A stretch of 64,000 nt of DNA from Spongiivirga citrea. GTDB lineage: Bacteria > Bacteroidota > Bacteroidia > Flavobacteriales > Flavobacteriaceae. The stretch spans positions 620,001 to 684,000 of the forward strand of contig NZ_JAABOQ010000001.1 in the NCBI RefSeq assembly GCF_010671565.1, in the 5' to 3' direction. Every line of letters begins with the position of its first letter. Position 1 is the first letter of the stretch. A program made the position numbers and the translations under genes. Of the stretch, positions 29,502-37,720 are shown piece by piece. The notes under the pieces are model-generated. The model saw nothing but the letters and a program-made list of their open reading frames with translations, was not told the origin of the DNA and ran no database searches.

Positions 29502-29537
29502 AAAAAGGCTGCATCTCCGAAGAAATACAACCTTTTT
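29502..29537 (-). terminator. Terminator copy 1, 16-bp stem with UUCG loop
   Basis: Read on the minus strand, a 16-bp stem closes on a UUCG tetraloop with a C-G closing pair. Three stem positions are G-U pairs in this orientation but A-C mismatches on the plus strand, so the functional strand is minus. The stem ends in five T. The same unit recurs at 30865-30900. Confidence 0.82.
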
Positions 29538-29668
29538 TCCCAACCAAAAACCTAATGTAAATTGTTCATATAAAACTGATCAAACATCACTAAAATCAGT
29601 TTCTGTATTTTTTTAAACTTAGCCAATTAAAAGGGGCATTTTTAATTGGTGTTTGTTCTTGTTTGTTT
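29502..29668 (-). ncRNA. Candidate small RNA of the ECF regulon
   Basis: A promoter copy of the ECF class (29675-29706) points into a 580-bp region that has no protein gene on this strand. The predicted transcript of about 165 nt would fold into three successive hairpins: 10-bp arms CCAATTAAAA/TTTTAATTGG (29623-29649, 7-nt loop with CCCC), 8-bp arms AAACTGAT/ATCAGTTT (29573-29602), and the 16-bp UUCG terminator. The only short ORFs are of about 5 and 11 codons. The 5' end is set by assuming a start about 7 nt past the -10 block. Function unknown; base-pairing regulation through the C-rich loop is a guess. Confidence 0.5.
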
Positions 29669-29674
29669 ACATAT

Positions 29675-29706
29675 ATAAAACAACTACAGCACCAAATACC
29701 CTACCC
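29675..29706 (-). promoter_or_regulatory. ECF-class promoter copy: small RNA
   Basis: On the minus strand GGGTAGGGT, 14 nt, TTGTTTTAT. It differs from the consensus only at the first base of the -35 block. It stands upstream of the proposed small RNA. Confidence 0.75.
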
Positions 29707-29767
29707 TATTTTTTTACTTTTTTCGAAATTCTTTTGTTCTCGGGAACAATCATAATTTTTAACAAAA

Positions 29768-29792
29768 AATCCTGACAATAATCGTCAGGATT
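29768..29792 (-). terminator. Terminator of the 284-aa lipoprotein gene
   Basis: AATCCTGAC (29768-29776) pairs with GTCAGGATT (29784-29792) around a 7-nt loop, and on the minus strand a T-run follows. It is 64 bp past the stop at 29856. Confidence 0.82.
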
Positions 29793-29855
29793 CATTTTAT
29801 AATTACAATTAGTTTATTTCGGGTAGTTTATAATTAAACAATCTAAATCGTCTTG

Positions 29856-30710
29856 CTATAGACAGCCTCCTATAATATCTCCGTGTCGCAAGTGTGCTGC
29901 CAATGTACTTATTTCAACAATGCGTTCTGTTCGTCCGTTAGCACCAACATGGCATACGTTTACAGTACCAACTGGCTCTGCTATCAGTCGTACTTGATAT
30001 TGATCACTTATTAGCTTAATCTCACTTGTCAACTGATCATTATCTATAATACTTATAGTTTTATCCTCAAATTCCGACCGTATCGAAATGGGATATTCAA
30101 TTTCCAACACATCAGATTGTAACATATTTGTAAGTAGATTCATCATGTCTCGGTTATTCCTAACCAAGATCATTCCTCTTTCTCTAGAAATAGTATTAAA
30201 AAAGGCAAAACTTACTGGATAAATTACAGTGGCGCCACTAACCGCATTATAGTCAGGCTTATTTTTGTATTCCTCTTTTACAGTAACTAATTGCTCTTCA
30301 TTCTCAATTGTTTTGACTGAAAAATCGTTAAAGCGCATGTCTATAGGGTAATCAAAAAACACTTTATCATCATCTTCGATTGAATACTCAGCAACAATCT
30401 CTGCAATTTTAAGGCCCTTTCTATTTTCAACAGTGAATGTTTGTCCATTCATCGATACTTTGACAGGAAATATAACCTTTGCCTGCGACAAGGAGTCTAG
30501 CACATCATCCCTGCTACCATTTATTGTGGTAATCTTTAAAATATTATTTACAAGAGGATCATTCTTAGTAATTGCCTCTTCAGAGATCGTATATCCTTCT
30601 TCAGGCATATTCGTCTCATCGGGCCCATCACTATCAGCTTGACAACTGCTAAAAAGCAAAATTGCTGGCAATAGGAAGATTAATGCTTTAAGGGGGGTAT
30701 TACATTTCAT
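29856..30710 (-). CDS. Surface lipoprotein of the ECF regulon (short paralogue)
   Basis: A 284-residue lipoprotein (LLFSS then Cys23). The mature protein repeats a module of about 65 residues: a strand ending FPVKVSMNGQTFTV, a helix, FDYPIDMRFNDFSVKTIEN and another helix; then IYPVSFAFF... and IEYPISIRSEFEDKTISIIDN. The same module builds the 475-aa lipoprotein downstream of the sigma gene. I do not recognise a named family. An ECF-class promoter stands 58 bp upstream, and its own terminator follows. It is probably an outer-membrane lipoprotein working with the TonB receptor; that is inference from context. Confidence 0.75.
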   Translation of the reverse strand: MKCNTPLKALIFLLPAILLFSSCQADSDGPDETNMPEEGYTISEEAITKNDPLVNNILKITTINGSRDDVLDSLSQAKVIFPVKVSMNGQTFTVENRKGLKIAEIVAEYSIEDDDKVFFDYPIDMRFNDFSVKTIENEEQLVTVKEEYKNKPDYNAVSGATVIYPVSFAFFNTISRERGMILVRNNRDMMNLLTNMLQSDVLEIEYPISIRSEFEDKTISIIDNDQLTSEIKLISDQYQVRLIAEPVGTVNVCHVGANGRTERIVEISTLAAHLRHGDIIGGCL

Positions 30711-30767
30711 AATATTATGCTTTTAATTATAGTATTAAAAACACTAGTTTGGCATAGTCTATCTACT

Positions 30768-30799
30768 ATTAAACAATTTGGTTGTACTTAACCCTACCT
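30768..30799 (-). promoter_or_regulatory. ECF-class promoter copy: 284-aa lipoprotein
   Basis: On the minus strand AGGTAGGGT, 14 nt, TTGTTTAAT. The lipoprotein ATG is at 30710, giving a leader of about 50 nt. Confidence 0.78.
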
Positions 30800-30864
30800 T
30801 ATATCGATAAAGTGTAAAGTGTCGTATGTCTAGCGATAGATTTAATATTCATATTAGGCACATG

Positions 30865-30900
30865 AAAAAGGCTGCATTTCCTAAGAAATACAACCTTTTT
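30865..30900 (-). terminator. Terminator copy 2, 16-bp stem with UUAG loop
   Basis: Same unit as 29502-29537: 16-bp stem on the minus strand, here with two G-U pairs and a UUAG loop. One G-U of copy 1 is an A-U pair here, a change that keeps pairing. Both copies are preceded by an identical 25-bp stretch (30903-30927 and 29540-29564), so about 60 of 63 bases are shared. Confidence 0.8.
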
Positions 30901-30932
30901 TTCCAACCAAAAACCTAATGTAAATTGTGTGT

Positions 30933-30961
30933 ATTAATCCAATCTAGATTGTTGGATTAAT
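30933..30961. terminator. Hairpin after the 41-aa ORF
   Basis: ATTAATCCAA (30933-30942) and TTGGATTAAT (30952-30961) are perfect 10-bp arms with a 9-nt loop. It lies between the small ORF stop (30990) and terminator copy 2. With no adjacent T-run it may protect the 3' end and not terminate. Confidence 0.5.
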
Positions 30962-30989
30962 AGCTTTCTTGTAAAACTTATTTTTGAAA

Positions 30990-31115
30990 TTATGCAACGG
31001 TAGTTGCAACTAACAATCCTACGATTGTTATCATGGTAAGTGCAATTCCACTTAGCATAAAGTTAGATTCTTGACGTAATTTTCGGGGGCTTAATAATCG
31101 TGTTTGTGCTTTCAT
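30990..31115 (-). CDS. 41-aa single-helix membrane peptide of the ECF regulon
   Basis: ATG at 31115 to TAA at 30990, 41 codons. Residues 1-18 are basic (MKAQTRLLSPRKLRQESN) and residues 20-41 form one hydrophobic helix (MLSGIALTMITIVGLLVATT). This charge pattern predicts an inner-membrane peptide with the N-terminus inside. The ECF-class -10 block ends only 4 nt before the ATG, so translation would be leaderless or would start at the internal ATG at 31058, which leaves just the helix. Followed by a hairpin and terminator copy 2. No family recognised. Confidence 0.5.
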   Translation of the reverse strand: MKAQTRLLSPRKLRQESNFMLSGIALTMITIVGLLVATTVA

Positions 31116-31119
31116 GCTT

Positions 31120-31151
31120 ATAAGACAATTATAAACATAAAAACCCTACCT
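31120..31151 (-). promoter_or_regulatory. ECF-class promoter copy: 41-aa peptide
   Basis: On the minus strand AGGTAGGGT, 14 nt, TTGTCTTAT, preceded by AGAAAAAG as in the fecR copy. It lies 60 bp past the stop of the long lipoprotein gene and directs transcription of the small ORF. Confidence 0.78.
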
Positions 31152-31210
31152 CTTTTTCTAATAAAAAAAGCGCAAAAATAAATAACTCATTTGAAATCAG
31201 TAATTTATAA

Positions 31211-32635
31211 TTACAATTTATCAAAAACCAAGGTAGCTTCTAAGGTACCCGCATTAAAAAGTTCTAGGGTTATTTGATCATCATTATAATTAAGTACCTG
31301 CCAGCTTGTGGCTATTTGTGTAAAGGGAGGTATATCTTCAAACGTCATCGCTAATGACAAATCAAACTGATCGCGTATAGTAACTTGCCAGGTGCCTTCT
31401 ACCCCAGCATTATTTATTGCAGCACGAAGTTCACCATTTGAGCTAAACGTAAAAACACGTTGATTGAAAAGGATAGTTTGATCGCCACTAGCTGCAGTGG
31501 TATAATTACTAACCTGCCAACCTGCACTAGCAAATAATGTATTCAATTCGGGAGGAGTAGTAGCTCGGACTCTTCGTAATGTCAAAAATTGATCTCTAAA
31601 TCTGATATCAAATTCTAAGTCGTTTAACTGTATAAGATCCCAATCTCGATCAAATACACCGTTTAAAGTGGTATCGTTAAAATCAAGGTCCAATTCTAGC
31701 GAACTGTAATCTCGTTCTAAGCTCCAGTTTCCTGAACTATTTGTTCCTCCATTATCAACTTGTAAGGTACCATCCGTATTAAAGGTCACATTATTGGTCG
31801 AAAACTCTACAGTACGATCATTGGTTCCTTCTATATAACTCTTAATAACGAAGTCGTCTGCATCAAGTAATGCTCTAAAGGCGGAATCATCTAAAATAAG
31901 CCCATCGGGTGTAAAACAATCATCAGCTGCAATTGCTTCTAATAACGTTTCTAGCTCAGTACCATTAGCAACATCTCGCATTTCGCCATCTTCTAAAGTA
32001 ACCTCTACCGGGTATAATAAACTAGCTATTTCCTGTTGGTTTAATTCTAAACCTTCATTGTCAGCAGCCAAAGCAACCATGAAATCGAATAACTGTTTAT
32101 CAGTTTCTAGTCTAAAATTATCAGAAGTTTGTTTTGCCTGATCAAAAGTGATCATAAATAAAGGATAGGTGAAATCAAGACAAGTAAGCGCTCCCAATTG
32201 AAAATCTCGTTCACATTCTTGGATTAGCGCATCGAAATCTGCCTCGCTCGCAATGGTGTCTATCGTATGATCATCGTTTAAAAATGAAATTGGATACGTA
32301 AATGTCACAAAATCATAATCAGCTGTACTACGATCAAAAATGGCTTGAACCTGGCTTATTCCATCATCTGATGTTAAGGTTAATTGTTCTCCATTTACAG
32401 TCACTGTAACGGGATATACTAACTCACCACAATTATAATCGTCGATTAAGTTATCAACTCGACCATCGTTTGCAGAAGTATTTTTAATGAAAGTAAAAAG
32501 ATCCGAATCTACCGTAATAGTTTCTAAACTAATAACTGGTCGCTCTTCTATATCCGGTATATCTTCTTGACAACCAATTAAAAACAAAAAAATCGCACCT
32601 ATTGTATATATACCAAATTTTGAGGGATTAATCAT
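31211..32635 (-). CDS. Surface lipoprotein, long paralogue with lipocalin-like C-terminal repeats
   Basis: About 475 residues from the ATG at 32635, which gives a clean SPII signal (FLFLIG then Cys); an in-frame upstream start at 32722 would bury the signal behind 29 residues. The N-terminal half repeats the module seen in the 284-aa lipoprotein: YPVTVTVNGEQLTLTSDD, FTYPISFLNDDHTIDTIAS, LDFTYPLFMITF, LLYPVEVTLEDGEM. The C-terminal half has two lipocalin-like units, NWSLERDYSSLELDLDF and GTWQVTIRDQFDLSLAMTF. Divergent from the sigma gene; it lacks a clear ECF-class promoter. No named function. Confidence 0.75.
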   Translation of the reverse strand: MINPSKFGIYTIGAIFLFLIGCQEDIPDIEERPVISLETITVDSDLFTFIKNTSANDGRVDNLIDDYNCGELVYPVTVTVNGEQLTLTSDDGISQVQAIFDRSTADYDFVTFTYPISFLNDDHTIDTIASEADFDALIQECERDFQLGALTCLDFTYPLFMITFDQAKQTSDNFRLETDKQLFDFMVALAADNEGLELNQQEIASLLYPVEVTLEDGEMRDVANGTELETLLEAIAADDCFTPDGLILDDSAFRALLDADDFVIKSYIEGTNDRTVEFSTNNVTFNTDGTLQVDNGGTNSSGNWSLERDYSSLELDLDFNDTTLNGVFDRDWDLIQLNDLEFDIRFRDQFLTLRRVRATTPPELNTLFASAGWQVSNYTTAASGDQTILFNQRVFTFSSNGELRAAINNAGVEGTWQVTIRDQFDLSLAMTFEDIPPFTQIATSWQVLNYNDDQITLELFNAGTLEATLVFDKL

Positions 32636-32732
32636 AAAATAAGATGTCACTATACTATTTGATTTAGTGCCTAAATTACCACCTTTATTTTCTATTTTAA
32701 AAATTGTTTTCTCTAAATGCACTCAAAAACGT

Positions 32733-32740
32733 TAATTTTG
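32733..32740 (+). promoter_or_regulatory. Housekeeping -7 element of the sigma gene
   Basis: TAATTTTG matches TAnnTTTG and lies 41 bp upstream of the sigma TTG start. No ECF-class element precedes the sigma gene, so the sigma factor itself seems to be expressed from the major promoter class. Confidence 0.4.
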
Positions 32741-32781
32741 GCTAGATTTAAATATAATTTCTACAATAAATACGATTTATT

Positions 32782-33294
32782 TTGAGTGAGGTAGTTATCC
32801 CTAATGTATGTGAAGAGGCTGTTTTTGGAAATATTTATATGACGAACTCAAAAGCCATATACCGATACATATATTATAAGTGTGGTGATGAAGACAAAGC
32901 CAACGATGTAGCCCAAGAATCTTTTCTAAAGCTTTGGGAAAACTGTAAAAAGGTTGCAAGCGATAAAGCAAAGGCTTTTTTGTATCGGGTTGCCAACAAT
33001 TTGTTCTTGAATGATGTTAAATCGAAGAAGATTGCTTTAAAATATGCCAAGCAAAGTGAGAATGTTGATAACGAATCACCTGAGTATGTTTTAGAAGAAA
33101 AAGAATATAAAGATAAATTAGAGCGGGCACTAGCTAGATTAACGGAAGCTGAGCGCACCGCTTTTTTAATGAATAGAATTGACGGCAAAAAATATAAAGA
33201 AATTGCCGAAATGCTTGATATATCAGTAAAAGCAGTAGAAAAAAGGATTCATAAAGCCCTCCAAAAATTGCGAGAAACTATAGATGGAATCTAG
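32782..33294 (+). CDS. ECF sigma factor (FecI-like)
   Basis: A 170-residue sigma-70 family protein with only regions 2 and 4. Region 2 reads AIYRYIYYKCGDEDKANDVAQESFLKLW (about 25-52). Region 4 reads LARLTEAERTAFLMNRIDGKKYKEIAEMLDISVKAVEKRI (about 114-153), with the recognition helix at SVKAVEKRI. The start is TTG at 32782; the next ATG (32839) would remove the beginning of region 2. It should recruit RNA polymerase to the bipartite promoters found around it, under control of FecR. Next gene is fecR after 158 bp that hold one of these promoters. Confidence 0.88.
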   Translation: MSEVVIPNVCEEAVFGNIYMTNSKAIYRYIYYKCGDEDKANDVAQESFLKLWENCKKVASDKAKAFLYRVANNLFLNDVKSKKIALKYAKQSENVDNESPEYVLEEKEYKDKLERALARLTEAERTAFLMNRIDGKKYKEIAEMLDISVKAVEKRIHKALQKLRETIDGI

Positions 33295-33328
33295 TTTTTT
33301 AAAATTTTTTAATTTTTTTTCGAAAAAG

Positions 33329-33360
33329 AGGTAGGGTAAACTTAAAACAAGTTGTTATAT
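33329..33360 (+). promoter_or_regulatory. ECF-class promoter copy: fecR and TonB receptor
   Basis: AGGTAGGGT, 14 nt, TTGTTATAT. It lies between the sigma and anti-sigma genes, so active sigma would raise FecR and receptor but not itself. The leader to the fecR ATG (33453) is about 85 nt. Confidence 0.8.
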
Positions 33361-33452
33361 GTATGTAGCACCAGATTATTTCGAGTTTGCGACGAGATTT
33401 AAAAGTGTTATATAGTTTGCAAAACAAGTTTAAAGTTTAAGAAATTTTTACC

Positions 33453-34382
33453 ATGAAAGATAATTTTTTAGCAAAATGGCTAAATGATGAGTTAGAAAGC
33501 TCAGAGCTTCAGGAGTTACAAAAAACTCCAGAGTTCGAGTCGTATAATAAGATCATTAGTACATTAGATAAGTTGGAAGCCCCAGCCTTTGATGAAAAGG
33601 CGGCATTTGCTTCTTTTAAGTCCAACTATCTTGCTACACCCCAGATTAAAGAAGAAAAAGAAACCAAAGTCATTAAAATGAATGTTTGGAAACCAATTTT
33701 ACGCATAGCAGCTGTGGTTGTGCTTGCTGTAGGTTTCTACACATATTTTAATACACTTGATACTTCAGTAGCTACAGATTTAGCTCAAATGTCGGAAATT
33801 ACACTTCCTGATAATTCTGAAGTAATAGTGAATGCCGGTTCTGAAATTTCTTTCAACAAAAACAGTTGGAATGAAAACAGAGAAGTAAACCTTAAAGGTG
33901 AGGCATTCTTTAAAGTTGCAAAAGGACAAAAATTTGACGTAGTCACTACTGATGGTATTGTATCAGTATTAGGTACGCAATTTAATGTAAATAACCGCGA
34001 AGGACTATTCCAAGTAACATGTTACGAAGGTTTAGTAAGTGTAGCGCATAAAGGTCAGGTAACAAAATTACCTGCAGGAACTGCCTTTACCGTATTAAAT
34101 GGTGAAGTAGTTTCTAAAGAGTCGCCTACAACTCAAGTTCCTTCATGGACAATTAATGAAAGTTCTTTCAAGAGTATGCCGTTAGGTATTGTAATTGCAG
34201 AGCTTGAAAGACAGCATAATGTCGTTATTGAAACTCAAAATTTAGACTTGAATAAGAATTTCACAGGAAATTTTAGTAATAACGACGTAAATTTAGCTTT
34301 GAAGAGCATCAGTATTCCTTTAAATCTTATATTTGATATTCAAGATAAGAAGGTAATATTATATGCAGAAAATAATAAGTAG
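33453..34382 (+). CDS. FecR-type anti-sigma factor
   Basis: A 309-residue inner-membrane protein. Residues 1-75 are cytoplasmic and should hold the sigma factor; a helix spans about 77-98 (ILRIAAVVVLAVGFYTYF). The periplasmic FecR domain follows (EITLPDNSEVIVNAGSEISF, GEAFFKVAKGQKFDVVT, SVLGTQFNV) and the C-terminal DUF4974 unit (SFKSMPLGIVIAELERQHNVVIE) resembles an STN domain. It relays the receptor signal to sigma. The last 20 bases overlap the receptor start, so the pair is coupled. Confidence 0.9.
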   Translation: MKDNFLAKWLNDELESSELQELQKTPEFESYNKIISTLDKLEAPAFDEKAAFASFKSNYLATPQIKEEKETKVIKMNVWKPILRIAAVVVLAVGFYTYFNTLDTSVATDLAQMSEITLPDNSEVIVNAGSEISFNKNSWNENREVNLKGEAFFKVAKGQKFDVVTTDGIVSVLGTQFNVNNREGLFQVTCYEGLVSVAHKGQVTKLPAGTAFTVLNGEVVSKESPTTQVPSWTINESSFKSMPLGIVIAELERQHNVVIETQNLDLNKNFTGNFSNNDVNLALKSISIPLNLIFDIQDKKVILYAENNK

Positions 34383-36945
34383 GAGTTGGCACCTATTAAT
34401 ACTCCTCTTTTTATTACATAATTTTCAGGTAAGTTTTTCGCAAGACTTAAAACAAAACAACAAATTGCTGCTCGTTGAGGTACTTCCTCAAATAGAGCAG
34501 CAATTTTCTGTTACATTTACTTACGTAGATGAAACACTTGATAATGTTTATGTTAGGGCTTTTGACGTAAAAAAAACCTACTTAAGTAAACTTCTCCAAA
34601 ACATTTCGAGCCAAACACAACTTGTGTTTAACGAGCTTACAAAAGGCAACTATGCTATTAGTGAAAATCCAGAATTAACTGTCTGTGCAACGATCATCGA
34701 TGCAGAAAATGACGACCGTATTTTTGGTGCTACTATCGTAGTCGTAAACAAAAGCCAGGGAGCATTAAGTATTGAAGATGGTAGTTTTAAACTTTCAGAA
34801 ATAAAGCGAACGGACTCTTTAGAGGTTCGCTATCTTGGGTATAAATCTGTTGGGGTATACGCAAAAGACCTACTCGACCTTACCAATTGCCCTCTTATTA
34901 AGTTAGAAAGAAAGTACGAAACCCTTAACGAAGTAGTCTTAACCGAGTTCTTAACTGTTGGTATTCAAAAGCAAAAGGATGGCGTAATTAGCATGTCTCC
35001 TGATGATTTTGGAATTTTACCTGGTCTTGCAGAACCAGATGTGCTTCAGACCATACAGGCATTGCCAGGAGTAAAAAGTATTGACGAAACCATTTCGGAC
35101 ATCAATATTCGCGGCGGTACAAATGATCAAAATTTAGTTTTATGGGATGATATTAGAATGTTTCAACTAGGACATTTCTTCGGTTTAATATCGGCATTCA
35201 ACCCCTATGTTACTAATAACATTGCAGTCATTAAAAATGGAACCAATGCACAGTATGGTGATGGCGTAAGTAGTGTCATAAAAATGGAAACCGACAATGA
35301 CGTTAAGGAAGAATTTAGTGGCGGTGGAGGTATAAATTTTATTGGTGCTGATGCGTATGCTAACCTTCCTATAAGAGAAGGGCTTTCTGCACAGGTTTCT
35401 GCACGAAGATCGGCAACCGATTTCTTACGATCACCGACCTATGATCAATATTTCACTAGAGCTTTTCAAGATTCGAAAATCACCGACCTCACTACAAATG
35501 AAGATGTTGAAGATATAGAAGGTGAAGAAACTTTTTTCTTTTATGATCTATCAGCAAAAATATTATATGATCTTGATGATAAACATTCGTTTAGAGCTAG
35601 CTTTATTAATATTGCAAATAAACTTACCTATGTAGAACGGGCTGAAGTAACAGGAAACCCGTTTGACGAAGAAAAAGAAAGTTCTCTCGATCAAAAGAGT
35701 TTAGCCTTTGGAGGAAATTGGACTGCAAAATGGACTGACCGACTCACCACTACCCTTTCGGGTTACTACACAAACTACGATCTTGATGCGCTCAATTTTA
35801 CACTATTTTCTGATCAACGTCTACTTCAATTAAATGAGGTACTTGAAACAGGAACCAAGTTAGTAGCTACCTATGATCTTCAAGGAGAGCGCGTCTACTT
35901 ATCAGGAGGATATCACTTTTCAGAAATTGGAGTAACCAATATAACTGATATTAATATTCCTAGTTTTAACGAAACTCGAAAAGATGTTTTGAGAAATCAT
36001 GCTGTTTTTGGTGAATACAATTTTTCATCTGAAACTGGAGATCTAGCTGCACGTCTTGGACTTCGAGCAAATTATTTTTCCAATTTCGAAAAATTGGTAA
36101 TCGAACCACGTCTTAATGTTGTATACAAGTTTTCTCCGGAAATAACTGGAGAGCTTCGTGCAGAAATGAAAAGTCAGACAGCAACACAGGAAATTGACCT
36201 TCAGGATAATTTTTTAGGAGTTGAGAAACGCCGCTGGGAGCTATCTAACGATGGTAGTAGACCCATAACGCAAAGCAAGCAAGCGTCAACTGAATTTAGT
36301 TATAACAAGAATAATTGGCTTGTGTCCCTAAGTGCTTTTTACAAAGATGTTACAGGAATCACCACCTCAAACCAAGGCTTTCAAAACCAAAATCAGTTTG
36401 CCCGTTTCGAAGGTGGTTACAGCCTCTCGGGAGTTGAATTCTTATTAAATAAAAAAGCAGCCAATTTTAGTGCTTGGTTAGGTTATAGTTATAATGTAAA
36501 TAATTATGAATTTACCGATCTCGATCCTGGTGAATTTAGAAATAACCTCGATGTGCGACATGCAGTTACCGTAGCAGCTACTTATACTTGGCAAAAAATC
36601 CGGTTTGCACTTGGGACTAATTGGCGAACAGGTAGGCCTTATACCTTACCGCTACCAGGAAATGAAATAAATGAAAGCGGGTTAATCAACACCATTAATT
36701 ATGATGTCCCCAATGGTGCCAATCTCGATGATTATTGGAGAACAGATTTTTCGGCCAACTACAAGTTTAATGTTAACGACCGATTAAGAGCTACTGTAGG
36801 AGCAGCTTTATTAAATATTTTTGACAGACGCAATACCTTAAACATATATTATCGACTTGACACACCTCAATCAGATAACGTTCAAGAAGTAGAGCAAAAG
36901 TCTTTAGGTATTACTCCAAACGTAAGTTTCCGCTTAAATTTCTAG
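34363..36945 (+). CDS. TonB-dependent outer-membrane receptor/transducer with STN domain
   Basis: An 860-residue protein: signal peptide (1-27, ending FSQ), STN signalling domain (about 30-105, LLLVEVLPQIEQQFSVTF), carboxypeptidase-like regulatory domain (about 110-185, IDAENDDRIFGATIVVVNKSQGA), plug (about 205-320, LQTIQALPGVKSI, NIRGGTNDQNLVLWDD) and a 22-strand barrel ending in Phe (VSFRLNF). No SusD partner is adjacent. With sigma and FecR it forms a cell-surface signalling trio; the ligand is unknown. Convergent with the HTH gene, 4-bp overlap of stops. Confidence 0.9.
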   Translation: MQKIISRSWHLLILLFLLHNFQVSFSQDLKQNNKLLLVEVLPQIEQQFSVTFTYVDETLDNVYVRAFDVKKTYLSKLLQNISSQTQLVFNELTKGNYAISENPELTVCATIIDAENDDRIFGATIVVVNKSQGALSIEDGSFKLSEIKRTDSLEVRYLGYKSVGVYAKDLLDLTNCPLIKLERKYETLNEVVLTEFLTVGIQKQKDGVISMSPDDFGILPGLAEPDVLQTIQALPGVKSIDETISDINIRGGTNDQNLVLWDDIRMFQLGHFFGLISAFNPYVTNNIAVIKNGTNAQYGDGVSSVIKMETDNDVKEEFSGGGGINFIGADAYANLPIREGLSAQVSARRSATDFLRSPTYDQYFTRAFQDSKITDLTTNEDVEDIEGEETFFFYDLSAKILYDLDDKHSFRASFINIANKLTYVERAEVTGNPFDEEKESSLDQKSLAFGGNWTAKWTDRLTTTLSGYYTNYDLDALNFTLFSDQRLLQLNEVLETGTKLVATYDLQGERVYLSGGYHFSEIGVTNITDINIPSFNETRKDVLRNHAVFGEYNFSSETGDLAARLGLRANYFSNFEKLVIEPRLNVVYKFSPEITGELRAEMKSQTATQEIDLQDNFLGVEKRRWELSNDGSRPITQSKQASTEFSYNKNNWLVSLSAFYKDVTGITTSNQGFQNQNQFARFEGGYSLSGVEFLLNKKAANFSAWLGYSYNVNNYEFTDLDPGEFRNNLDVRHAVTVAATYTWQKIRFALGTNWRTGRPYTLPLPGNEINESGLINTINYDVPNGANLDDYWRTDFSANYKFNVNDRLRATVGAALLNIFDRRNTLNIYYRLDTPQSDNVQEVEQKSLGITPNVSFRLNF

Positions 36946-37208
36946 TGTATTTTAAAAGGATAGTTATTGGCCGTATGTATCATTTCGATACGCCCATCTT
37001 CCTTGATCCAATTTAAAATCGTCCCACTTTTTTTAATTCCGTATTTACGCTGTAGCTTTTCGATACTTAAAAACCCATTCTGATATTCCTGAATGACTCT
37101 GTTTTTAAATGCCTGGCTGTAAATACGTGAGCCTTTTGATTTTTTTGTAAGCATGTTGCGTTGTGTCATTGTTGTTTGCATGAGTGCAATACTCAAGCAT
37201 GTTGTCAT
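36942..37208 (-). CDS. Solitary transposase-type HTH protein 1
   Basis: An 88-residue protein. Residues about 25-70 form an IS3 OrfA-like HTH (YSQAFKNRVIQEYQNG, then LSIEKLQRKYGI, then ILNWIKEDG). No catalytic DDE domain follows on any frame and no terminal inverted repeats were seen, so this is not an active insertion sequence. Start ATG at 37208; the Met at residues 10 or 14 is also possible. An ECF-class promoter stands 55 bp upstream. It is probably a DNA-binding regulator derived from a transposase. Confidence 0.7.
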   Translation of the reverse strand: MTTCLSIALMQTTMTQRNMLTKKSKGSRIYSQAFKNRVIQEYQNGFLSIEKLQRKYGIKKSGTILNWIKEDGRIEMIHTANNYPFKIH

Positions 37209-37263
37209 GTTGTTGTATTAGGAAATAGGTTTGGGAGAGAACGAAAACTAAAGGTCTTCAACT

Positions 37264-37295
37264 ATATAACAATTCGTCCAAGAAAAACCCTACCT
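37264..37295 (-). promoter_or_regulatory. ECF-class promoter copy: HTH protein 1
   Basis: On the minus strand AGGTAGGGT, 14 nt, TTGTTATAT, identical in both blocks to the fecR copy. The leader is about 50 nt. Confidence 0.8.
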
Positions 37296-37318
37296 AGTTC
37301 TTTTGTAAAATGCAAAAA

Positions 37319-37339
37319 CCCCGCCACAAAGTGACGAGG
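37319..37339 (-). terminator. Terminator of HTH gene 2
   Basis: On the minus strand CCTCGTCAC pairs with GTGGCGGGG around a 3-nt loop (two G-U pairs, which show the strand) and is followed by GTTTTTGC. A second stem, ACAAACC/GGTTTGT, lies at 37352-37375, nearer the stop. Confidence 0.75.
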
Positions 37340-37388
37340 TCTCCCAGTTTGACAAACCTATAAAAATGGGTTTGTTCAAGGTGTTTCC

Positions 37389-37646
37389 TTATGAATATTG
37401 CAATTTGTGCTTATTTAAGGCTATTTGCGTTTCTAGTTTATTTAAATATTGTTTTCTGTTCGAAACAGAACTTTTGTTAGTATAATGACCAATCCAGCTC
37501 AATATCTCATGACAGGTGTCTATACCATATTTATTTCGAAGTCCTTCGATACTTAGCAAGCCTTGCTCGTACTCTTTAGTCACCAACTGCTTAAAAGTTT
37601 CGCTGTATAAAGTAACTTTTTGAATATTTTTTGGTCTTGCTTTCAT
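37389..37646 (-). CDS. Solitary transposase-type HTH protein 2
   Basis: An 85-residue protein related to the one at 36942-37208: LYSETFKQLVTKEYEQG, LSIEGLRNKYGI and ILSWIGH line up with YSQAFKNRVIQEYQNG, LSIEKLQRKYGI and ILNWIKE. The basic N-terminus (MKARPKNIQK) precedes the HTH; a helical, charged tail follows (KQYLNKLETQIALNKHK). ATG start, own ECF-class promoter 43 bp upstream and own terminator. Likely a regulator, possibly forming mixed complexes with protein 1. Confidence 0.7.
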   Translation of the reverse strand: MKARPKNIQKVTLYSETFKQLVTKEYEQGLLSIEGLRNKYGIDTCHEILSWIGHYTNKSSVSNRKQYLNKLETQIALNKHKLQYS

Positions 37647-37688
37647 TGATAAGATTGTTATAAATACTAACTTTTTGTGCTAGTACAT

Positions 37689-37720
37689 ATAAAACAATTT
37701 GCTTCAATAAAACCCTACCT
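37689..37720 (-). promoter_or_regulatory. ECF-class promoter copy: HTH protein 2
   Basis: On the minus strand AGGTAGGGT, 14 nt, TTGTTTTAT. It sits in the 121-bp gap between argS and the HTH gene. Confidence 0.8.

Follow-up and report, generated by a model that had tools for sequence, protein, structure and literature searches.

The DNA of Spongiivirga citrea analysed here, a 64 kb stretch of a 17-contig genome of 4.15 Mb (G000:C9:620001-684000, hereafter the window), encodes an extracytoplasmic function (ECF) sigma factor followed by a FecR-like anti-sigma factor and a TonB-dependent receptor. Six near-identical promoter-like sites are found around these genes and very probably belong to this one surface-signalling sigma factor. 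Sigma70_r2 (7.8e-12) and Sigma70_r4_2 (3.8e-19) are the only domains of the sigma factor above Pfam cut-offs, and TIGR02937 also scores above its cut-off. The three genes and the six sites are as follows, with protein lengths in amino acids (aa).

32782..33294, plus strand: ECF sigma factor, 170 aa; alignments with orthologues begin at residue 8 and the start codon is uncertain
33453..34382, plus strand: FecR-like anti-sigma factor, 309 aa (FecR 2.6e-17, FecR_C 2.1e-08)
34363..36945, plus strand: TonB-dependent receptor, 860 aa; N-terminus weakly resembles the FecR_C/STN signalling domain
29675..29706, minus strand: promoter-like site 1 (GGGTAGGGT-N14-TTGTTTTAT), upstream of copy 1 of small RNA (sRNA) W
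30768..30799, minus strand: promoter-like site 2, upstream of a 284-aa lipoprotein gene
31120..31151, minus strand: promoter-like site 3, upstream of a 41-aa frame
33329..33360, plus strand: promoter-like site 4, between sigma and fecR
37264..37295, minus strand: promoter-like site 5, upstream of an 88-aa frame
37689..37720, minus strand: promoter-like site 6, upstream of an 85-aa frame

A pattern scan of the 64 kb with RGGTAGGGT-N14-TTGTYWWAT returns exactly these six sites without a mismatch, at the coordinates and on the strands given in a preliminary description of this DNA. Chance expectation in 100 dinucleotide shuffles is a mean of 0.04 matches, the largest number being 1. No seventh site was found in the window even at two mismatches, and the description had noticed none. 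The first block is likewise as described, AGGTAGGGT in five sites and GGGTAGGGT in the sixth. The spacer had been called fixed in length and free in sequence. Its length of 14 nucleotides (nt) is constant in all six; its sequence differs among them, but it is not wholly free, because in 102 sites from relatives A or T predominates at the four positions that follow GTAGGGT. The second block is better described as YTGTTWYA, a refinement drawn from the sites of relatives: TGT is present in 102/102 of these, a regularity partly forced by the search pattern, and the preceding base is T or C. The relaxed motif used across genomes is GTAGGGT-N14-YTGTTWYA.

The regulon extends far outside the window. 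The complete genome contains 15 exact sites (six of them in the window), 6 with one mismatch and 15 with two; a reversed control gives no site at up to one mismatch, compared with 21 real ones, and three at two mismatches. The sites are not scattered at random, the outcome that the preliminary description had named as contrary to its proposal: none of the 21 overlaps an open frame of at least 100 codons (list read by eye), and orthologous genes of other genera are likewise preceded by sites. Sorted by reading, the 21 precede the fecR-receptor pair (1), larger proteins that are lipoproteins or look secreted (5, among them the 284-aa lipoprotein and a lipoprotein with a CAP domain), proteins of 88, 85 and 122 aa (3) and frames of 20-53 aa (4). 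The remaining 8 have no clear frame behind them and comprise three copies of sRNA W, one class F RNA, one site near tRNA-Cys and three others. With 19 relaxed-motif sites this genome has the highest count of 299 Flavobacteriaceae genomes, the runner-up having 8.

Co-inheritance of the motif and the sigma factor

The relaxed motif and the sigma factor were sought in the same 299 genomes, 208 of which contain a sigma match at 1e-30. Matches with E below about 1e-52 are termed close, and group counts exclude the S. citrea genome itself. The relaxed motif is present in 78 of the 85 genomes with a close sigma (250 sites against 11 control sites), compared with 6 of the 91 genomes lacking a match at 1e-30, in which 6 sites against 6 control sites represent the control level (Fisher p 8e-34 for the two groups, relatedness uncorrected). 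This co-inheritance, seen by genome comparison, supports the earlier proposal that the sites are promoters of the sigma factor at 32782-33294. Among other families of the same order, 0/23 genomes have a site at one mismatch.

The sites also occupy fixed places. Including the window, 29 of the 30 top orthologous loci have a site (at most 3 mismatches) in the gap between sigma and fecR, before the divergent gene, or at both positions. Sites at the divergent position, upstream of sigma, point away from sigma and toward the divergent gene, which in relatives encodes a lipoprotein of the family represented in the window by the 284- and 479-aa proteins, and in Aquimarina a seven-transmembrane (7TM)-transglutaminase protein (L160). 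No site reads into the sigma gene in the window or in the 30 top loci, and one stands before fecR-receptor; the sigma factor should therefore raise its own anti-sigma factor and receptor.

Fixed spacing, claimed at first for the six sites, extends to relatives. When 8-21 nt were allowed between GTAGGGT and YTGTY at 79 sigma loci from titled genomes, the 14-nt spacer was found in 42/42 pairs in the sigma-fecR gap, in 53/54 at the divergent position and in 118/121 anywhere in the loci. At sigma identities of at least 54% (50 loci) a gap site is present in 35, a divergent site in 45 and one or the other in 50/50; below 54% (29 loci) the corresponding numbers are 7, 8 and 9/29. Genera with a site include Maribacter, Cellulophaga, Robiginitalea, Zhouia, Aquimarina, Polaribacter, Lutibacter and Flavobacterium. 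Presence of the site is strongly clustered on the sigma tree, requiring 7 changes compared with 17.3 after shuffling (0/500 shuffles as low). In Aquimarina one sigma clade has the site (15 rows) and a paralogous clade is without it (6 rows), and isolate 2-328 has both.

Small RNAs behind the motif

Reading of 57 stretches that flank motif sites in relatives, almost all of them outside the sigma locus, together with loci read earlier, gave a recurring follower among the stretches listed, an RNA-like gene designated class A that is often found beside a pdxH-like gene (neighbour named by eye). Lipoproteins are further recurring followers in relatives. Class A comprises a head, AAATTGCTATGAAAAAG, a linker, a core, TTCATGTGTTTAGGTTGGTTTTTGATTTT, and a terminator directly 3' of the core. 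It is unlike a conserved frame, because its two conserved blocks are separated by a linker of variable length and its terminator changes in sequence while its pairing is kept. A model built from 13 copies, with the promoter excluded, matches 56/299 genomes at E 0.01; below 1e-6 there remain 38 genomes, which represent 34 genera. A close sigma is present in 37 of these 38, and the best sigma match of the 38th (G183) is 3.3e-51.

Thirteen of the 30 best class A loci are training rows of the model and 17 are independent. The motif precedes 17/17 of the independent copies at no more than two mismatches (7 exact, 16 at no more than one), ending 2-5 nt upstream of the class A model start, whereas 600 windows drawn at random from the same loci gave a best match of 4-8 mismatches. 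The motif check covered these 30 of the 38 class A genomes; among the other eight, one (G018 = L044) had been read earlier and has an exact motif. No Rfam (release 15) family reached its gathering score over the RNA in the 20 of 30 class A loci scanned. The best sub-threshold matches nearby are to Termite-leu, with 32.6 bits where 51 are required, and to isrJ, with 32.5 where 37 are required; in a scan of the S. citrea loci and the window only tRNAs reached it.

The S. citrea genome seems to lack class A and to have replaced it by family W. Its single class A match (E 0.009) is without the motif. Family W is found in three copies behind sites (in the window, L013 and L020) at 83-84% identity, and its 3' part is repeated once more in the window:

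29502..29672, minus strand: sRNA W copy 1, taken to extend from just past site 1 to the terminator hairpin at 29502-29538; core 29539-29565
30862..30928, minus strand: second occurrence of the last 67 nt of sRNA W, comprising core and terminator (96% identical), behind the 41-aa frame

None of the other 298 genomes gave a convincing W; five of them contain short relatives (E 1.5e-5 to 6.8e-4) that have no motif nearby. In the three S. citrea copies, the only sequences compared, a few paired changes preserve the terminator and a second stem. A third RNA, class F, consists of TGAAACATAAAGTAAGC, 6-11 bases and GCCTCTAAAAAG, and is found in 10/299 genomes and in 0 controls; none of its 10 loci has an Rfam match at gathering score. 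It stands behind the ECF motif in S. citrea (L018/L364, C10:201723-201762) and in G128 (L232/L361). The other eight genomes have no ECF motif at this RNA, and in 7/8 of them a TAnnTTTG box is present instead (by eye); the promoter therefore seems to have been exchanged. Elsewhere in the S. citrea genome (L007:1533-1625, C10) a class A head, AATTGCTATGAAAAA, lies right before a terminator with no class A core, and is possibly a degenerate class A gene.

Searches for targets gave a lead for W. Duplex energies were calculated for 590 predicted genes over their start regions, on about 864 kb of the 4.15 Mb. The best pairs of the W core are stronger than those of all 200 dinucleotide shuffles, for the mean of the top 10 and of the top 20, while the class A core shows no excess on the same regions (100/200 shuffles as strong). 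Inside genes W shows no such excess in its top 10, where 110 and 67 of 120 shuffles are as strong. Weighing against such pairing, the number of pairs at or below -14 is raised in one within-gene zone too (0/120 shuffles as high), and the core forms pairs with an upstream loop when the three copies are folded to a consensus. The top 20 pairs are not enriched in secreted-like proteins (0.50 vs 0.47), and a complement search of the S. citrea genome gave no excess (16 non-self matches at 3 mismatches, 12 in reversed controls). Judged from these predicted duplexes, the W core probably pairs with the start regions of some mRNAs, which is a lead and not a target list. For class A, 37 non-self exact 12-base complement matches were found in 13 genomes compared with 32 in controls, again no excess. 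These matches were rejected as targets; several are one conserved stretch that is not a 5' leader.

Proposed signalling circuit and its alternatives

FecI, FecR and FecA constitute a cell-surface signalling system of ECF sigma factor, anti-sigma factor and TonB receptor. The locus described here resembles it in its gene order, sigma-fecR-receptor, and in domain content, and, of four orthologous receptors tested, two have an N-terminus related to the signalling domain (FecR_C 8.6e-11 in L160 and 4.4e-5 in L180; STN 2e-4 in L160, below cut-off). Unlike that system, a site splits sigma from fecR, so that the anti-sigma factor is a predicted target and sigma is not, and the candidate regulon is genome-wide, with lipoproteins, small peptides and small RNAs. 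The signalling is of a known kind; the promoter, the sigma/anti-sigma split and the RNA arm are what differ.

We are confident that the evidence as a whole is best explained by sites that are promoters of the sigma factor at 32782-33294, coupled to receptor-FecR signalling, feedback and an RNA arm. This explanation draws on the sites themselves, their fixed spacing and fixed places, their co-inheritance with sigma and their position before an independently modelled RNA. From these we infer a chain in which the TonB-dependent receptor would bind a ligand and report through its N-terminal domain to the FecR-like protein, which would then free sigma. Free sigma would read the sites by directing RNA polymerase to GTAGGGT-N14-YTGTTWYA, with transcription presumably starting just past them. 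With no site for sigma and one for fecR-receptor, activity would raise inhibitor and sensor, a negative feedback. The same promoter would also drive lipoproteins, small membrane peptides and small RNAs whose action would form the RNA arm, class A in relatives and family W in this genome.

Several observations weigh against this assignment. Relaxed sites are absent from 7/85 close-sigma genomes and present in 41/122 with only a distant sigma match (36/102 and 5/20 in two groups, with 62 sites against 5 in controls and 12 against 1). Instead of a single change, the site label takes 7 on the sigma tree and is not confined to one clade. The S. citrea genome has a second sigma match at 1e-30, and other ECF factors could read the sites. 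The window receptor matches the FecR_C model weakly (E=0.15), and two of the four orthologous receptors tested (L137, L138) have no FecR_C match. Two-mismatch sites are mostly chance, 6 of the 9 read (of 15) overlapping long open frames. An alternative reading, to which we assign a minor share of the probability, is that several related ECF sigma factors whose specificities overlap recognise the motif, and not this one alone. It is favoured by the distant-sigma genomes with sites and by G183, which has class A and an exact motif, and overlap between flavobacterial ECF regulons is expected by Guerin et al., as far as the available part of that paper goes (PMC9723704). On the other hand, genomes with no match at 1e-30 are at control level, the paralogous Aquimarina clade lacks the site, and the distant matches may be diverged orthologues.

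The class A and W transcripts might instead be mere leaders or carriers of tiny proteins. Short frames do occur in some copies (21 and 46 aa in L044, for example), the W module is also found behind the 41-aa frame, and the W core may be paired inside the RNA; no long frame follows class A in the copies read, however, and we regard a non-regulatory role as improbable. It would be more surprising still if the two blocks were the operator of a DNA-binding regulator at promoters read by the primary sigma factor. Bipartite sites at a fixed distance are typical of dimeric regulators too, and transcription starts are placed at the sites by inference, but the sites are directional, they are neither inverted nor direct repeats, they lie 2-5 nt before modelled RNA starts, and they co-occur with the sigma gene and precede its neighbours. 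It is scarcely credible that the repeated sites stem from a small element, mobile or duplicated: promoters may have been copied along with the duplicated W RNAs, but the spacers of the six sites differ, their flanks are unrelated, and relatives keep sites in fixed places beside sigma.

Neither the motif nor a description of class A was found in open-licence literature, consisting of text without figures and supplements. GTAGGGT occurs in the open-licence Flavobacteri/sigma factor literature only inside a primer, and TTTAGGTTGGTT has one occurrence in open-licence literature, in work on a human cancer cell line by its title. The SM6 motif of Flavobacterium psychrophilum is an ECF motif with a CGT box at -10 that precedes type IX secretion system (T9SS) genes, the putative regulatory RNA Rfp11 and a sigma/anti-sigma pair, and its authors note that further ECF-controlled starts may await discovery (PMC9723704). 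Judging from the portion of that paper available, the two are alike as Flavobacteriaceae ECF promoter classes, the targets given for SM6 including an RNA and a sigma/anti-sigma pair, and differ in the box (TGTT here, CGT in SM6); single RNAs reported here may be identical with Rfp RNAs. No T9SS gene was recognised by eye among the downstream genes listed, and no family search for T9SS was made. The closest RNA system, again on the part of the source available, is FopS of Bacteroides thetaiotaomicron, multi-copy sRNAs, one of them derived from a 3' untranslated region (UTR), which share a conserved core and repress susC mRNAs at the start codon; they have a primary-sigma promoter and a 5' seed followed by the terminator (PMC11697453). 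As described there, FopS and the RNAs reported here are both Bacteroidota sRNAs in several copies with a conserved core, one copy being tied to a 3' UTR in FopS. In contrast, class A and W lie behind an ECF motif with the core right before the terminator.

Promoter specificities of Bacteroidota ECF factors are little known, and the one defined here is enough to list a regulon in any Flavobacteriaceae genome. The promoter also brings to light a small RNA of 34 genera, along with peptides too short for usual annotation. In Escherichia coli, sigma-E is an envelope-stress ECF factor that makes the small RNAs MicA and RybB, which act on surface proteins. Tentatively, and as a possibility about which we have more doubt than confidence, the present system may be the Flavobacteriaceae counterpart of sigma-E/MicA-RybB. 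One ECF factor would command the anti-sigma factor, the receptor, the divergent surface gene, a conserved sRNA and small membrane peptides; the RNA arm would evolve by replacement, with class A lost and W and class F recruited in the lineage of S. citrea; and the RNAs would silence surface-protein mRNAs at the start codon during the synthesis of new lipoproteins and peptides. We propose the logic of sigma-E for this system, but phylum, anti-sigma type and sequences differ, and an envelope-stress role is suggested here by analogy only. That an ECF factor together with small RNAs may rebuild the cell surface in Flavobacteriaceae, as in enterobacteria with sigma-E, can now be tested.

Other genes of the window and minor followers

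The remaining frames of the window near the sites are:

29856..30710, minus strand: lipoprotein, 284 aa, member of the family encoded divergently from sigma in relatives
30990..31115, minus strand: open frame for a small protein, 41 aa, with one hydrophobic stretch
31211..32650, minus strand: lipoprotein, 479 aa, start uncertain, divergent from sigma
36942..37208, minus strand: protein, 88 aa
37389..37646, minus strand: protein, 85 aa, no family above cut-off

The targets named in the preliminary description hold in part. The fecR-receptor pair, the 284-aa lipoprotein, the 41-aa peptide and the small RNA are each preceded by a site, whereas the divergent 479-aa lipoprotein gene has none within two mismatches in the window, although its counterparts in relatives have one and its smaller 284-aa relative does so in the window. 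The description had also counted two helix-turn-helix (HTH) proteins. For the 88-aa protein an HTH match (HTH_Tnp_1) was obtained below the curated Pfam cut-off, and for the 85-aa protein no HTH match was obtained; the former has no relative among viral contigs. Proteins of the 284-/479-aa lipoprotein family contain repeated YPI..D/NG..V..EL units that are modelled as beta-beta-beta-alpha repeats (mean predicted local distance difference test score, pLDDT, 70.5). The 284-aa protein has no PDB fold match at E 0.001 and no Pfam family above cut-off, and the 479-aa protein has a C-terminal lipocalin-like match, GH43_C.

Other followers of the motif were seen in relatives. One-helix peptides of 27-58 aa lie behind it at L041, L054, L123, L125, L236 and L255, several beside a peptidyl-prolyl isomerase-like gene (by eye). 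A 55-aa membrane peptide, MDVINEII...FGY, is found behind the motif in five relatives (L215, L223, L235, L240, L252), beside an M14-like peptidase gene (by eye), and probably represents a small protein that is conserved but unannotated. At L031, L036, L105, L231 and L248 the motif precedes a small lipoprotein rich in GYYDDGYY repeats (RRNFIKKSGQALLA...). Motif matches within genes were discarded, among them a recurrent one at L045 and L049, in a gene that we take to be dapD, which is a coding coincidence. In the S. citrea genome (L014:1501-1693, C16) three tRNA-Cys(GCA) genes have a site between the second and the third; the last of them begins 88 nt past the site and scores 39 bits, compared with 61 for the first.

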